NCBI RefSeq assembly: GCF_021155765.1
Contig: NC_060107.1
Coordinates: 16,788,501 to 16,852,500, forward strand
DNA length: 64,000 nucleotides
From: Diprion similis
Taxonomy: Eukaryota; Arthropoda; Insecta; Hymenoptera; Diprionidae
Direction: 5' to 3'
Both the position numbers and the translations under genes were made by a program. Shown in pieces: positions 50,460 through 61,555 of this stretch; within the stretch, counting starts at the first letter, position 1; the number at the start of each line of letters is the position of its first letter. The notes beneath the pieces are model-generated. The model was not told where the DNA came from. It was given only the letters and a program-made list of their open reading frames with translations, and did not search any database.

Positions 50460-52790
50460 GATTCTTGTCCAAATTCCATCGTGATGGTTATTAGTTCTGG
50501 TCTTCGTTGAGTGTTGTAGTTCGTTCTGCGCGGGAGTTGCAGGGGTTCAAAGGTATATGTATAAGATTTATCACTTGTGGGTTGGATCGCATGGGGACAG
50601 TGGTTGATAGGGGCATGGTTACATTATTCGGGATTTTATCAGGGTTTGTTATCCATTCCGGGTTCCTTTTGCAGATTCTTTCTATCACATCTACGATATG
50701 TCCTAGTAGGTTCAAGGCTATTTCTCTCCTTGATCCGTCTGCTTCTTAGTTCTGTACGTCCCGCGTCCTGTTGTTGCCGGTCTACGATAGTCTCTTGGTG
50801 TCTTGAGTTGGTTTTTGTGATCCATTTATCGCAGTCGATTGGTTGCTGGTATGAGTTTTTCATCCAGTGCAGAAGACCCGTGGCGTTACGAAGCACGCAG
50901 TTGAATTGGGCATCCATAGTTGAATGTTGGGTGCAAGGTGTTCCGTGTTCCTTAATTGTGAACAACGGGTAATATATTTAATAAATTTATCACATGATTA
51001 AAGCGTTTCTTCAGCATTACAGCTTTATCCAATCCTTTTACGAAGATGGTTGTTTGGGTCTTCCTCGCACAAGGGGTAGTTTTTTTCCCTACCTATTCTA
51101 TCTGTTAGTTATGTCCGATATTTCTAACTGAGTCTTATGTACAATTTAATAGGTGGTATCGCGGAATTCATGCTTATGTTGCGTTGTAGAAGCATGCCCA
51201 ACCTGTATTTTTAATTTATCAGTTCGTCATTATCATCTTTAGGGATCTCGATTACTAATTCTGCAATCTCGAGGTATTGTTTTACCTTACTTTGGTTTTT
51301 GTCGTCAATTATTATTGAGAATGTTTCGTCCTCCGCGCCTTTGATCAATACAAGGGTGTTCGCGAGGGTCTCAGTATTGAGATCATTAATAATCCTATAT
51401 GCGTTGCCGCGGTGTTATAATTTTCGCGCACGTTGTAATTATACTTTCCTGGGGGCAAATTTTTATTCAATATCATTCGGTGGATTACTTTCTTTACCCA
51501 ATCTGGCATGATTCTATTGCACCTTACTGCGACAATGCTGTTAACGTGTATTATTTCTAGGACCCGTGGGGTCGGATAGAACTGATCGTCGAATATTATC
51601 ATTGGGTTTTCTTCCTGTTGTACGAGATTCATCATGTAAAATTGAGATTTGAATACATTATCTGGCGGTCTTTGTCGGTTAGGTTGGATCTTGGTCAGGC
51701 GGGGCTCCGTAATTGGTGTTATTCTTTGTTGGGATAAATGAATGGTTCTTAAGGATTGATGAGTTTTGGGTGATGTGTGAGTGGAGGCGTGGGGTTGTGC
51801 ATGGGCACACTTGCGCGGACCATACCTACTCCCCTGTCGAGTTAGTTTCTGTTGGGATCCTCGTTACTTCGAGTCTATGTGACGTACGTGAGCCCGACCG
51901 TGCGTCTTATTGTAAGCTTTGGTCCCTACTTTGCGACCCCCACACTTGAATTGGGGCATGGTCACGAGTCTATATGAACGTCGGTATGGTTGCTGCAGCA
52001 ATCAGTCGCAATTCGATCTTGAAGCGCGAAAAGTTGTCAGCGTCAAAGAGTTGAAAATATTGATCCTGAAAATGGAAACTGGCAAGTGTTTTATCATGGT
52101 TCTCTTTTTCGTGATTTATGGAAATCGGTGTTCGTATTAATGGCATATTTTCGTTTTCCTTAGTTGTTTCTCGTCTCTATTTGACGCCATTGATGGAGGG
52201 CTAATTAGGATGTGCCTTTTTACACCAACTGGGTGACAAGGGAGGCCATGCTGTGGCAGTGGTTCTGCCGGATGGTGTTATACCAACGATATAATGCATG
52301 GCGTCCTCGAAACAGGGGTGTTTTTGCGGAGATTGCATGCAGCATCTCGAGGGTCCCTTCAGGCCCTTGGGACGTCACTTCATGATCTCTCTACCTCTTG
52401 CGCAAATAACTTCTTGTTTTTAGTGCTTGCTACTCACGCGTTCGTCGAGGGTGTTATCGCGCAATGGGTTCAGGCTAAGGCGGGCGGAGCTAAGAAGGTG
52501 GAGCCAAATGGTTGGAGTTGCTATTCGTTGATCACGATATCCAGGCTTGAGAGAGAAGGTTGATGACCGCAGCGTCGCCCCGTTGATGGAGTTCCTGGCC
52601 TTGAGTCTACGTCCAAAATGGTGGTACATATTCTATAGGGAGGTTATGGTGGTTTGAGCTGATAGTTACGGAGATATTGCGTTTTCAACAGGAATTGGCC
52701 CTTTATGCAATGGATTCGCAAAATCTGATAGTTCTGGCAATTGCGTGGCTGCATGTCTTATTTTCTTGAGGTTATAAATTTTAATATTAA
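50460..52790 (-). pseudogene. 3' region of dead retroelement, decayed open frames of unknown identity
   Basis: On the minus strand several interrupted frames follow the integrase/macro region. 51960-about 51250 is open except for one stop and a frame change (internal words PDWVKKVIHRMI and NKNLPPGKYNYNVREN). 50965-50490 is open apart from one frameshift (words NATGLLHWMKNSYQQPID, NPEWITNPDKIPNNV). These are polar, protein-like sequences in the position where some Ty3/gypsy elements carry an envelope or accessory gene. I cannot identify a domain, so the assignment rests on position and strand only. Confidence 0.4.
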
Positions 52791-52801
52791 AATCGTTCGT
52801 T

Positions 52802-53093
52802 TATGGTAGAGGTTTTTAAGCGCATATTTTAATGTTTCGTACGTTGGTTTGTCGCTGCTTTTTCTTTTGGTTATTAAGTAAAATATCAGCCGTTGACCTC
52901 GCTGTAGGGTAAGTACGTCGCCTACTTCTGGATTCTATGCCTTCAACTCATCGATGGAGCCGCACAGATGTCTAAACTGCAGAGCGATCCCTGCACTCAT
53001 GTGGAGGTCCTTGGCTACGCAGTGTGCCAGCGGGGTGTGTCCGATGTCGAGTGGAGCGCTAAACAAGTCGCCCGTCATCTCTTGTATCTTCAT
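52802..53093 (-). pseudogene. macro domain fragment, TARG1/OARD1-like ADP-ribose hydrolase type
   Basis: From an ATG at 53093 on the minus strand the frame reads about 97 codons matching the macro-domain protein OARD1/TARG1 (C6orf130): EMTGDLFSAP, then LAHCVAKDLHMSAGIALQF, VGDVLTLQRGQRLIFYLITK and SDKPTYETL. These are the strand-helix-strand core and ADP-ribose-binding loops of the fold. One in-frame TAG (52935-52937) interrupts it after IDELKA. The C-terminal third (the IGCGLD-type segment) is absent after about 52802, where similarity stops. It begins 30 bases past the integrase fragment stop and is in another frame. So it is either an accessory ORF of the retroelement or a host fragment captured by it. 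It is nonfunctional as it stands. Confidence 0.8.
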
Positions 53094-53122
53094 TCTGTCG
53101 TCTCTGTTCCCTTTGCCGAAGG

Positions 53123-53401
53123 TCAGCGAATGGTTTGGTGATTGGTGGATGTCGGAAGTGGCCCTACTATATCCAGGGATATTTTATCAAACGCGGTGGA
53201 GGAAGTATCGGTTATTACCATTGGTTGTTTTGTTTTTACCCGAAGTAGCTTTTTCTCCTGACAGCTTATACACTGCGTGATAAATCTTTGAATTTCTTCC
53301 TTTAAATTTTCCCAATGATACTTTTGTTTTATTCGGTTGTAGGTTTTCGTGACACTCTTGTGTCCTCCTATTGCTGACGCGTGGCCTTCTTCAATGATAG
53401 C
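53123..53401 (-). pseudogene. Ty3/gypsy-type integrase N-terminal fragment
   Basis: About 92 codons open on the minus strand. The HHCC zinc-binding domain is complete: GHASAIGGHKS holds the two His, and TQCISCQEKK holds the two Cys. The start of the catalytic core, FDKISLDIVGPLP, holds the first acidic residue. The frame then ends at TGA (53123-53125) and the rest of the DDE core is missing. It belongs with the gag-protease part further right on the same strand. Confidence 0.85.
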
Positions 53402-53489
53402 CGATCGTTCTGATTAAGGTGGTAAGATAATTTTGTTCGTACAGACTAGGATTTTTACAGAGTTGGTGGCGAATGTGATTCTGAATAGA

Positions 53490-55053
53490 TTAATAATATA
53501 GCTAAGCTTTTAGAATCATTGTTGAGATTGAACCATTTAAATGCTGAAGAAAAGGAAAATGTCTACATAGCTGCAACCTTCCAGCGTTTAAGGCACCGCT
53601 GAACTGACTTGAAAATATCAAATCGTGACGTCATAAGTACGTGCAGCGCGTCTGAATATCGAACGGTGAAATAACACCGCTGATTTCATTGGCTTGTTCT
53701 ATTAGATCCAACCAATGATATCAGTTACAGATCGAGACATACTTCTTGTGGGCCATGAATGGGCTGCTGTCACATGAAAATCGCCGTTACGAATCGTGCC
53801 ATATTTACAAAAAAAAAAAAAAAACTGATAGTATAAGTTTTCCCGAATAAAGTGAGTGCTTTTGTACGTGGCTAACTGCCTAGCGAGAGTGAAAGAAATT
53901 GTGAAACAGTGCAATCAGTTAATATTCAACATGCGGTAGCTCCGATCGGCCATGTTTGTTGTGGCGTTATTTTATTCACTTCATTATTTTTTATTATAAA
54001 CATTATCAGCGATTTGCATGACCAGTGACTCAGTTAGCCACGTACACTTTTATTCAAGCTTCAATTTAAAAATTTCCCGAGTAAGATTCGTGCTTCCGTT
54101 CTCGCAGGATTCGTAATGGCGTTTCACCCAATTACCTCGCTTCTGACGGCTAGAAATATATATATGACATGCCAGGTCAGCGGCGCCTTGATGAATACAT
54201 AGAGATGTTCGTATATCTCAACGATATTGTGTTATATGCAGAATCACTAGAAGAACATGATGGAAAGTTCAAGAATTTAGCGACTAGATTAAGACGCGCC
54301 AATTGAAAACTCCAACCGGGTAAATGTGAATTCCTAAAGAAGGAAGTAGGCTACCTTGGACATTTTATAGGAGAAGATGGTGTACGACCGGATCCCAAGA
54401 AGTTAGAAGCGTAAAGCATTGTCGACAAAAAGACAGAGGAAAGAACGAACGTTCCCGAACGAATATACACCGGCAACAAATTGACGAACCAAAAATCTCC
54501 ACATAAACCACACGATGAACCAGAAATTATTGAACCTTACGACAGAAATTCGGAACAATCAAGCGAAGACGAGGAGGACAGCGAAGACGACTTCCACGAA
54601 CTCGAGATATCCGAAATCCGAAAACGATATAGATAAAATTGAAACGCCGGCACTCGCCGAATATTTAACCGACCTGACAGAAAAGGAACCGGTCAAGAAA
54701 TCTAATCCTGTCATATAATCGAAGACGTTTTGACCCGCTCTAACGTAATCACGATTCGAGATAATATAGTAACGAAAAAGGGAATAATAATTTGGTTTAC
54801 AAACGAACACGGAGAACCCATAGATTCCGGAGGAAGGTCACTTGTAGCCTGTGGCAAAGCCATAAAATTAGGAAATATTAATGCACGGAAAGGAGAAACA
54901 TGGTTTAGGAAACGGAAATCAAGGAAACAATTCATAATAATTTTGTCAAAAGAGGGAAATGTAGGTGAACAATTAAAAACAGCTATTCCTGAACTTAAAA
55001 CCCTAATCGCGCAATTCGAAATTACACCAATATTCATATCAGAAACCAGATAG
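53490..55053 (+). pseudogene. inverted Ty3/gypsy reverse transcriptase segment, interrupted by a MITE
   Basis: Opposite in strand to the gag and integrase pieces on either side. 53500-53588 encodes a pre-RT linker (LLESLLRLNHLNAEEKENV). The 596-bp element at 53592-54187 interrupts it. From 54190 the palm continues with FVYLNDIVLYAESL, the YxDD box changed to YLND, then QPGKCEFLKKEVGYLGHFI and GVRPDPKKLEA. In-frame stops fall at about 54304 and after KKLEA. The fingers and RNase H are deleted. After an acidic stretch, 54730-55053 holds a spacer-type domain (NIVTKKGIIIWFTNEHGEP, DSGGRSLV, GKAIKLGNINARKGE). All features are of a dead copy. Confidence 0.75.
53592..54187 (+). mobile_element. 596-bp TTAA-flanked nonautonomous DNA element, unit 1
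   Basis: Begins GGCACCGCTGAACTGAC and ends with the inverse of GGCGCCGCTGACCTG. It is flanked by TTAA on the left (53588-53591) and TTGA on the right (54188-54191), one base decayed from TTAA. It is nearly identical, inverted, to 59560-60159. Subterminal inverted blocks include GTACGTGGCTAACT and CCCGAATAAAG/CCCGAGTAAG. TTAA target sites recall piggyBac-type transposition, but no transposase is present. Confidence 0.8.
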
Positions 55054-59369: not shown

Positions 59370-59559
59370 AAAGCCGATGGACGAGTGGGCTCAGCGAAGT
59401 GTACGAATTTGATGCTCTCTTTATATCGTTTAACTTCTTCTTCGTTTCTAATTGCGTGGTTTGAATTTTTTGGTTTATTAGAATTTAAATATAATATTTC
59501 CACGTAACCTGGTATTGGGTTATTTGGGTCGGTTGAGCTAACAGTCCGTGCGTTTTTAA

Positions 59560-60159
59560 GGCCCCGCTGAGCTGGCATGTCATATATATATTTCGTGACG
59601 TCAGAAGCGGGGAAAACGCAATTACGAATCCTGCGAGAACGGAAGCACGAATCTTACTCGGGAAATTTTTAAATTGAAGCTTGAATAAAAGTGTACGTGG
59701 CTAACTCAGTCACTGGTCATGCAAATCGCTGATAATGTTTATAATAAAGAATAATGAAGTGAATAAAATCACGCCAAAACAAACATGGCCGATCGGAGCT
59801 ACCGCATGTTGAATATTCACTGATTGCACTGTTTCACAATTTCTTTCACTCTCGCCAGACAGTTAGCCACGTACAAAAGCACTCGCTTTATTCGGGAAAA
59901 CTTATACTATCAGTTATTTTTTTGTAAATATGGCACGATTCGTGCGTTTTTCATGTGACAGCAGCCCGTTCATGGTCCACAAGAAGCATGTCTCGATCTG
60001 TAACAGTATAAGTTCTATGTCTGTAACTGACATCATTGGTTGGATCTAACAGAACAAGCCAATGAAATCAGCGGCTTTAGTTCACCGTTCAACGTTCAGA
60101 GGCGCTGCACGTATTTATGACGTCACGATTTGATATTTTCAAGTCAGGTCAGCGGCGCC
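59560..60159 (-). mobile_element. 600-bp TTAA-flanked nonautonomous DNA element, unit 2
   Basis: Inverted near-copy of 53592-54187, flanked by intact TTAA on both sides (59556-59559, 60160-60163). Ends GGCCCCGCTGAGCTGG and the inverse of GGCGCCGCTGACCTG. Subterminal CGTGACGTCA occurs in both arms. No open frame. Confidence 0.85.
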
Positions 60160-61555
60160 TTAATGAGTGCCTTTTCTGTTTTGCGTTTTCCTCCTGTTTT
60201 ATCGTTGTTTCGTCTAGGCATTTAGTCTGGGGCGGAAGTGTTATCTGGTGGGGAAGGGGCGGGGGGGGGGGGGGGGGGGGGTAGGAACAAGAGGAATCCC
60301 TGACTACAGCGTCAGAAGCAATACGTCGGTAGGTACAATGTTGGGGGGATACTTCTGATAATTTTTAGGAAGGCAAAAAGAAGAATCTCTAATTGCAGCG
60401 TCGCTACCACATGCAGCGTGAGAAGCAATTAAGGTCATATAGTCATATTTATCATAGTTTATAACATAATTATTCATAAAGCTTGAAAAAAAAAAATTTC
60501 CAACGCTTGTTTTTATAAAAAAATGGTATAAATTAAATAAATAATTAGGTCAGATCTTTAATTTTGGGCTCAATTTATTCTTTACTTGATAAAGAACAAT
60601 TAAATCTGAGCTTTTTTCATCCCATCTCCATTAGTCTATAAGATATAATAAGTTTAAACATTGAAAACCAAGTGAGACTGATGAAGTAAAGGACAAAAGA
60701 ATTTTTAAAATGCGATAAAAAATATAAATAAATTTTTTTCATAAGGAAGCAATACTTGCTTGTTTTTGTTTCATTGTGTAGAAAAAGAAAAAAAATATAA
60801 TAAAACAATTTAATTGTTTATCACGAATTGTTTATTGAATAAACAATGAAAATTTGAATAAAAACAGAATTTTTTTTTCAGTTATTAAAGAACAAGATAA
60901 ATCATGATTTTCAACAAAAAATGATTCCTTAATATTGAATACAAGTGGTAGAAAAAAATTGTTATTTAACAAAACTATTTTTAAGCTACAAAAATTTTTT
61001 TTTAAGAAACGATTTTTTTTCTAAAAATCATTATTTGTATCAAAGATTGAAATTCCATAAAAAAATTTCAATTATCTTATAAACAACTCATTTGTTTATA
61101 ACAATTTCTTAAACAATAGGAGATAAAAATTTGAAAAAATTATTTCTATGCAGCTTCTGATAACAAAGAAACGGATCATCGATAATATTGAGAAAAAAAA
61201 AATTTCGATGATTAATTGAAGTTTTTAATTTTGCAACAATGAAAATTAGTAATAAAAAACTGAAAAATCAAAATTTTTTAATTTTTCCAACGGAGATCTA
61301 TTCTGAAGCCTTTGAAGAATAGCTCCAAGAAAGGAAAAAAATTTGAGGTTTGTAGTTTAACAATTATCGCATTTGCAATGTTAACATTCAAGCTACATAA
61401 AATTGTTCATTAACTAATGCATAACTAATTGAAAAATTGAGATAAAAATTTTTTTAGGCGGATTATTGTTCATTTATCTATCCAGTAAGCCCCTGAATTT
61501 TTTCATTTCTTAAATTTTATATTTAATATGTTAAAATAATTTTTATTAATAAAGT
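60160..61555. other. AT-rich noncoding DNA
   Basis: Starts with a G-run and two imperfect copies of a CAGCGTC-GAAGCAAT word (about 60309-60432), then over 1 kb of A/T-rich sequence with many poly-A and poly-T tracts. No gene recognised. Confidence 0.4.
60261..60281 (+). repeat. 21-base poly-G tract
   Basis: Uninterrupted G run preceded by GGGGAAGGGGC. Could form a G-quadruplex. The exact length is uncertain because such runs are error-prone in sequencing. Confidence 0.8.

Follow-up and report, generated by a model that had tools for sequence, protein, structure and literature searches.

TARG1/OARD1-type macro domains in the pol region of envelope-bearing Ty3/gypsy elements of Diprion similis

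Why should a macro domain, an ADP-ribose domain also borne by RNA viruses, lie directly behind an integrase fragment in an insect genome? The question is raised by a 64,000-nucleotide stretch of Diprion similis DNA (contig NC_060107.1, positions 16,788,501 to 16,852,500), here called the window, in which the minus strand at 52669-53413 carries an integrase H2C2 fragment followed by a broken macro domain of the TARG1/OARD1 type. The macro-bearing region belongs to a decayed envelope-bearing Ty3/gypsy element, of the family designated A. A macro domain of the same type is almost certainly a regular pol domain rather than a chance fragment in several element families of this genome, since it occurs within long open frames of pol in many related copies. 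The initial annotation of the window had suggested either an accessory gene of a retrotransposon family or a captured host fragment, and the former was borne out by the long open pol frames of several families here and by proteins from outside this genome. Loci of this genome are denoted by L numbers, its contigs by C numbers and the outside proteins by P numbers.

The broken copy in the window

The macro motifs originally quoted are all present on the minus strand behind the integrase H2C2 domain (3.2e-17), and the assignment to the TARG1/OARD1 type was confirmed. The open reading frame 52935-53183(-), which holds the N-terminal part of the domain, has its best E-value (1.5e-5) to structures of human TARG1/OARD1 (C6orf130) in a sequence search. 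In addition, positions 52702-53401 score 87.8 bits with a macro profile from which the window was excluded, compared with a maximum of 4.2 among 200 dinucleotide-block shuffles; six frames were searched, with X at stops. The Pfam Macro model had no match on the two short window pieces, the identity of which is nevertheless settled by longer related copies and TARG1 sequences. One TAG parts the two macro pieces, which accounts for the single stop codon noted earlier. The supposed loss of the C-terminal third was partly correct. A deletion of about 103 bp at 52799/52800 (equivalent to L009 4870-4972) has taken out the segment with the catalytic Asp, but the last strand survives in another frame (52669-52800).

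The tight junction between integrase and macro domain, offered initially as evidence of a link, is an internal deletion of about 2.3 kb that is absent from all related loci compared. The integrase piece is collinear with L009 as far as about 53150, which corresponds to L009 2230, whereas collinearity on the macro side starts only near L009 4569; L010 is collinear with the macro side as far as the joint and no further. No other copy compared has the same joint, although the order of the parts is kept elsewhere with more sequence between them. The macro fragment is also not a near-identical piece of the host OARD1 gene. Its DNA matches L010 (82% over 346 bp) as well as L009, L015, L016 and L022, and not the host exons in L018 and L029, at an E-value of 1e-3. 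At the protein level, the N-terminal part is 74% identical to L010, 60% to L011, 56% to L015, 55% to L016 and 38% to L009, which is broken in frame; the other element families reach 39-51% and the two host exons 44% and 37%.

The window copy is dead, as is evident from an inverted stretch, a nested repeat, the stop within the macro domain, the deletion of the Asp segment and the sequence DRS in place of DTG at the first retropepsin. Among the copies compared, DRS was found in the window copy only.

Macro domains in several element families

The arrangement of family A is seen in L011, where one open frame of 1,386 amino acids comprises part of the reverse transcriptase (RT), RNase H, a pre-integrase domain, integrase (H2C2, 7.5e-21; rve, 5e-10), a macro domain (macro1), a retropepsin and another macro domain (macro2) that is broken off by a stop. 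When the pieces were searched separately by sequence, macro2 matched TARG1 at 2e-20 and macro1 at 2.2e-11. The order in family A is a degenerate macro domain, integrase, degenerate macro1, second retropepsin and TARG1-like macro2. In families B and D, the segment between RNase H and integrase holds first the TARG1-like domain and then, adjoining the integrase, a degenerate macro domain. In family C, RT, RNase H and the TARG1-like domain are followed by the start of a second macro domain, where the stretch ends before the integrase. The Pfam order in L022 (family B) is RT, RNase H, Macro (2.5e-8), H2C2 and rve, and L042 (family D) has the same order. Both loci thus display the RT - RNase H - integrase order that is characteristic of Ty3/gypsy elements, pieces of which are present in L011 and L012.

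Searches of the complete genome (269 Mb) revealed that such domains are widespread. The L009 macro domain gave 94 matches (132/132 candidates scored), that of L022 at least 108 (best 150 of 172 candidates scored) and that of L039, from family C, at least 150 (best 150 of 225 candidates scored). Among the 108 matches listed for L022, counted by hand, 37 lie in stop-free frames of at least 1,000 amino acids, and for 20 the frame extends to 1,676 amino acids or more. Several frames of 1,801 amino acids contain two macro matches in succession with the L039 query. Ten of the family B rows listed are 97-100% identical and spread over many contigs. A family B copy on C4 contains a 673-amino acid frame at the place of gag, DTGS before the RT, pol, glycoprotein pieces (2.1e-71 and 1.4e-23) and long terminal repeats (LTRs); no gag family matched the 673-amino acid frame. 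A stretch of 487 bp, which is a lower bound for the LTR because the stretch ends there, is identical at both ends of this copy. Identical LTRs are a sign of recent insertion.

Frames of 1,896 amino acids at C1:16149418, C3:18117359, C3:18221166 and C12:1707777 have only a weak macro match (22-23% identity). They are perhaps elements that retain only the degenerate macro domain.

The degenerate domain of about 140 residues before the integrase in families A, B and D was recognized as a macro domain through an alignment and a predicted model only, as the single L011 sequence had no match in the PDB. In hhalign, a seven-row alignment of this domain (including two near-identical pairs) matched an alignment of 13 macro rows over 137 columns with a probability of 98.5% and an E-value of 1.9e-15. 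The eight best PDB matches of the model (predicted local distance difference test score, pLDDT, 69) were all C6orf130/TARG1, the best at 3.3e-7. The domain does not contain the GDLF, HC, GAGIA and GCG motifs. Read by eye from the alignments, the Asp is gone in families A and D, whereas both Lys and Asp may persist at the corresponding places in the family B domain. L020 has two macro domains in one frame, the second of which reads GCESR rather than GCGLD. The degenerate domains are more likely to bind or to be structural.

The TARG1-like domains, in contrast, generally keep the catalytic pair. TARG1 cleaves ADP-ribose off acidic residues and off the phosphate ends of nucleic acids (PMC7050489; PMC9411070), using Lys84 and residue 125, which is printed as Glu125 in the relevant part of PMC7050489 and as Asp125 in that of PMC9411070. 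Equivalents of Lys84 and Asp125 occur in 9/9 outside pol proteins. Within this genome, families B, C and D keep them in their TARG1-like domains, as do L009 and L016 of family A. The pair is not kept in the window copy, in L011 macro1 or in the second macro domain of L020, and macro2 of L011 and L015 ends before the Asp position. A model of the L022 domain (pLDDT 87) had TARG1 as its best PDB match (1.9e-16, 47% identity). The ratio of nonsynonymous to synonymous substitution rates (dN/dS) was 0.14 between L022 and L033 (117 codons), 0.03 between L039 and L038 (55 codons) and 0.11 between L022 and L017, where dS is saturated. Three comparisons were left out of account, two because dS was undefined and that of the window with L010 because its frame was wrong. 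Constraint on the macro domain is clear in families B and C; in macro2 of family A it is not clear.

Similar proteins were found outside this genome. The macro domain lies between RNase H and integrase in 8/20 outside homologues (P0003, P0004, P0008, P0009, P0012, P0013, P0015 and P0017); in P0012, P0013 and P0015, the TARG1-like domain immediately precedes the integrase. P0003, from the sawfly Athalia rosae, shares 66% identity with L022 across 81% of the region, with only the RNase H end present. P0014 has the macro domain before the RT (1/20), and 11/20 homologues had no RT or integrase match in the domain scan, though P0019 has a precomputed RVT_1 match. P0018 and P0019, both from the mealybug Planococcus citri, have a TARG1-like macro domain at their C terminus, in P0019 together with this RVT_1 match, and by eye the start of P0018 resembles the end of an RT of the long interspersed nuclear element (LINE) type. 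Non-LTR elements may thus have acquired macro domains as well.

The origin of these domains was examined with trees. Family B, P0003 and P0004 form one group, and families C, D and E form another with P0008, P0012-P0015, P0017 and P0026; P0009 and family A have no placement. A tree of 89 rows (11/100 domains were dropped, being short or, for P0002, a near-copy of P0001) does not resolve whether the domains between RNase H and integrase have a single origin. In a tree of 48 rows, from which 41/89 were dropped (long branches, a big clade of stand-alone proteins, P0019 and B3_L020_2), one clade for the 18 element rows was rejected by the approximately unbiased (AU) test (p 0.016). This result is weak, as stand-alone proteins may be element pieces. 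Two or more captures are likely. Host OARD1-like exons with two macro domains at C2:13509271-13512701 resemble the two-macro Athalia rosae protein P0001, which has two TARG1-type domains and a weak third match (679-759, 8.7e-4). Because the host gene carries two such domains, the tandem arrangement may predate the elements.

Possible role and alternative explanations

The macro domains described here are closest to TARG1/OARD1 (C6orf130), of the ALC1-like macrodomain class, which they resemble in sequence (L011 macro2, 2e-20), in the predicted fold of L022 and in the Lys84/Asp125 pair. The host TARG1/OARD1 gene is stand-alone and split by introns, whereas here the domain is within a retroelement polyprotein and often beside a degenerate second copy. 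The elements share the RT - RNase H - integrase order, the LTRs and the envelope behind pol with envelope-bearing Ty3/gypsy elements (insect endogenous retroviruses). They differ by the macro domain in pol and, in family A, also by a second retropepsin behind the integrase. Their envelope is a fusion glycoprotein of the Monjiviricetes (chuvirus-like) type, with two matching pieces each in L009 on contig C10 (5.5e-44 and 1.9e-40, about 2 kb behind macro2) and L044 (2.1e-71 and 1.4e-23). The Errantivirus envelope is described as baculovirus type in the text available for PMC12440569, and baculovirus envelope families gave no match to the L009 and L044 glycoprotein pieces at the cut-offs used. 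According to the corresponding part of PMC13172572, gypsy elements with type III fusion glycoproteins have already been published. In Hymenoptera, gypsy fragments were reported to adjoin such glycoproteins without clear capture by gypsy, in the section concerned of PMC10084718; the family B copy on C4 joins pol, such a glycoprotein and LTRs in a single unit.

Other retroelements and viruses share some of these traits. Fish epsilon-like endogenous retroviruses have macro domain open reading frames (Basta et al., 2009, as cited in PMC4977317); the citing paper treats them as extra frames of vertebrate retroviruses. Anakin likewise captured a chuvirus-type envelope gene but is a BEL/Pao element, with no macro domain mentioned in the available description (PMC7642597). 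The ADP-ribose domains of alphaviruses and coronaviruses are of the MacroD type, as stated in the portion of PMC7050489 that treats them, and not of the TARG1 type with its different catalytic pair. In the open-licence literature, no account of a macro domain within the pol of an insect gypsy element was found, although a report elsewhere is possible; 'macro' terms are absent from the texts of PMC12440569, PMC12992720, PMC10084718 and PMC13172572 as available.

Taken as a whole, the data are probably best explained by a regular TARG1-type pol macro domain that acts as a packaged hydrolase. The domain would be packaged with pol, would enter the cell within the reverse-transcription/integration complex and, by means of the Lys/Asp pair, would strip acidic residues or the ends of nucleic acids of their ADP-ribose. 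Stripping would undo host PARP-type marks on ends of the complementary DNA (cDNA), integration nicks or element proteins. By analogy with TARG1, the TARG1-like domain seems fairly likely to be an active hydrolase; that its target is these host marks is a more speculative suggestion. Packaging and action on ADP-ribose are inferred from the place in pol and from TARG1 chemistry.

Several observations weigh against this explanation, among them the inferred status of both substrate and timing. The Macro match is 0.003 in L042 and 3.3e-4 in L039 (after RT and RNase H), under the curated cut-off in both. Pairs with few changes have dN/dS values of 0.24, 0.37 and 0.45, and the values for family A macro2 (0.76 over 70 codons and 0.36 over 96 codons) are weak, being based on few changes. 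The second macro domain of L020 has no Asp. Finally, the tail arrangement of family A is known from this genome alone, as a protein search with the tail found no relatives at 1e-3 among 7,995 scored candidates.

The macro domains could instead be readers that guide the integrase by binding to ADP-ribose where chromatin is damaged or ADP-ribosylated, much like the chromodomains of chromoviruses, with no need of hydrolysis. A macro domain does adjoin the integrase in families A, B and D, the TARG1-like domain directly precedes it in P0012, P0013 and P0015, and macro1 of family A has no Asp. However, the full pair is kept over wide sequence distances and is not obviously needed for binding, and the domain also occurs before the RT (P0014) and behind the integrase (L011), so that a reader is unlikely. 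It is less probable still that the domain serves the polyprotein only as a passive spacer or folding unit, retained by history and with a TARG1 likeness that is now functionless. The pairing of a degenerate with a TARG1-like domain in families B and D and the weak matches of the 1,896-amino acid frames would agree with it, but the kept Lys/Asp pair, the low dN/dS in families B and C and the signs of more than one capture would not.

Two further explanations deny the domain a place in mobile elements. The long macro-bearing frames might be host genes derived from old elements, in line with the existence of two-macro host genes such as P0001, but this is very improbable, given that copies on many contigs are nearly identical, that LTR stretches are identical and that an envelope gene is present. 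Chance landing of a host OARD1 fragment by an integrase fragment is true of the joint only, which is confined to the window copy, in a host that possesses OARD1-like exons of its own. For the domain it is already refuted, and its likelihood is negligible, because integrase and macro domain share one open frame in L011 and in outside pol proteins and the window DNA follows the element loci rather than the host exons.

Macro domains are already known as a counter-defence of RNA viruses. The occurrence of the TARG1 class, with its catalytic pair kept, in many long open pol frames of insect retroelements suggests that ADP-ribosylation matters in their life cycle. It is tentatively proposed that packaged hydrolysis has a more general cause: insect elements might have taken an ADP-ribosyl-hydrolase into pol more than once, and might bring it, next to the integrase, into each new cell, the reason being that insect cells ADP-ribosylate incoming retroelement nucleic acids or integration complexes. 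If so, the elements would be the trace of a hitherto undescribed defence in which ADP-ribosylation counters reverse transcription or integration. With the macro domains at hand, it can be tested whether incoming cDNA, pol proteins or integration sites are marked by the host, and comparisons are possible among natural variants, which differ in being active or degenerate, in being single or tandem and in lying before or behind the integrase.

Features of the window copy and of family A

Table 1. Positions of features in the window and, where a locus is named, in related copies
Feature	Position	Strand	Basis
Integrase H2C2 zinc-binding domain and start of core	53123-53413	-	Pfam Integrase_H2C2 3.2e-17; 81.5% DNA identity to L009 1865-2230
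Deletion joint, about 2.3 kb lost (L009 2230 to about 4569), placing integrase beside macro domain	53148-53153	-	Comparison with L009
TARG1-like macro domain, N-terminal part (GDLF, AHCVAKD, AGIA), ending at TAG	52935-53093	-	phmmer against PDB C6orf130/TARG1, 1.5e-5
Macro domain, middle part with Lys motif (LITK)	52800-52934 (open reading frame 52758-52934)	-	phmmer to L009 macro domain, 8e-14
Macro domain, last strand, in a different frame beyond the deletion (about 103 bp) of the Asp segment	52669-52800	-	Comparison with L009
Remnant common to L009 6755-7069 (upstream of L009 glycoprotein), itself without a Pfam match	51242-51554	-	tblastn, 3.8e-41
Stretch inverted relative to L009	53488-55085	.	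Match orientation
Nested repeat of about 600 bp; inverted partner at 59558-60163, 88% identical	53588-54189	.	DNA comparison
RT remnant within inverted stretch	54202-54412	+	79-81% DNA identity to L011, L012
Remnant of degenerate pre-integrase macro domain within inverted stretch	54730-55053	+	Comparison with related copies
First retropepsin and pre-RT stretch, remnant; DRS versus DTG in L012, L046	55644-56528	-	Sequence comparison
Second retropepsin between two macro domains, behind integrase	L011:2375-2797	-	
Second retropepsin, same place	L009:4196-4595		
Second retropepsin, same place	L015:961-1383		
Second retropepsin, same place	L016:866-1288		
Monjiviricetes-type (chuvirus-like) fusion glycoprotein	L009:7183-8213	+	
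Monjiviricetes-type (chuvirus-like) fusion glycoprotein	L044:1293-2522	-	

The LTRs of family A were not found within the stretches examined, where L009 gives only a 142-bp tandem repeat. This unit is present in three tandem copies at L009:5680-6109, between macro2 and the glycoprotein.

The module of macro domain, second retropepsin and macro domain behind the family A integrase (Table 1) is odd in its own right. In L011, the second retropepsin matches gag-asp_proteas (4.7e-9) and RVP (1.1e-5) and has the motif DTGA; its dN/dS is 0.17 (141 codons). Family A has two retropepsins, since L012 and L046 keep DTGS before the RT. The idea that the usual retropepsin is dead and replaced by the one behind the integrase was rejected for the same reason. 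As a genome query, the second retropepsin gave 13 rows, seven at six family A loci and six at 27-29% identity, three of the latter in frames of 1,487 amino acids. It may have come from another retroelement.
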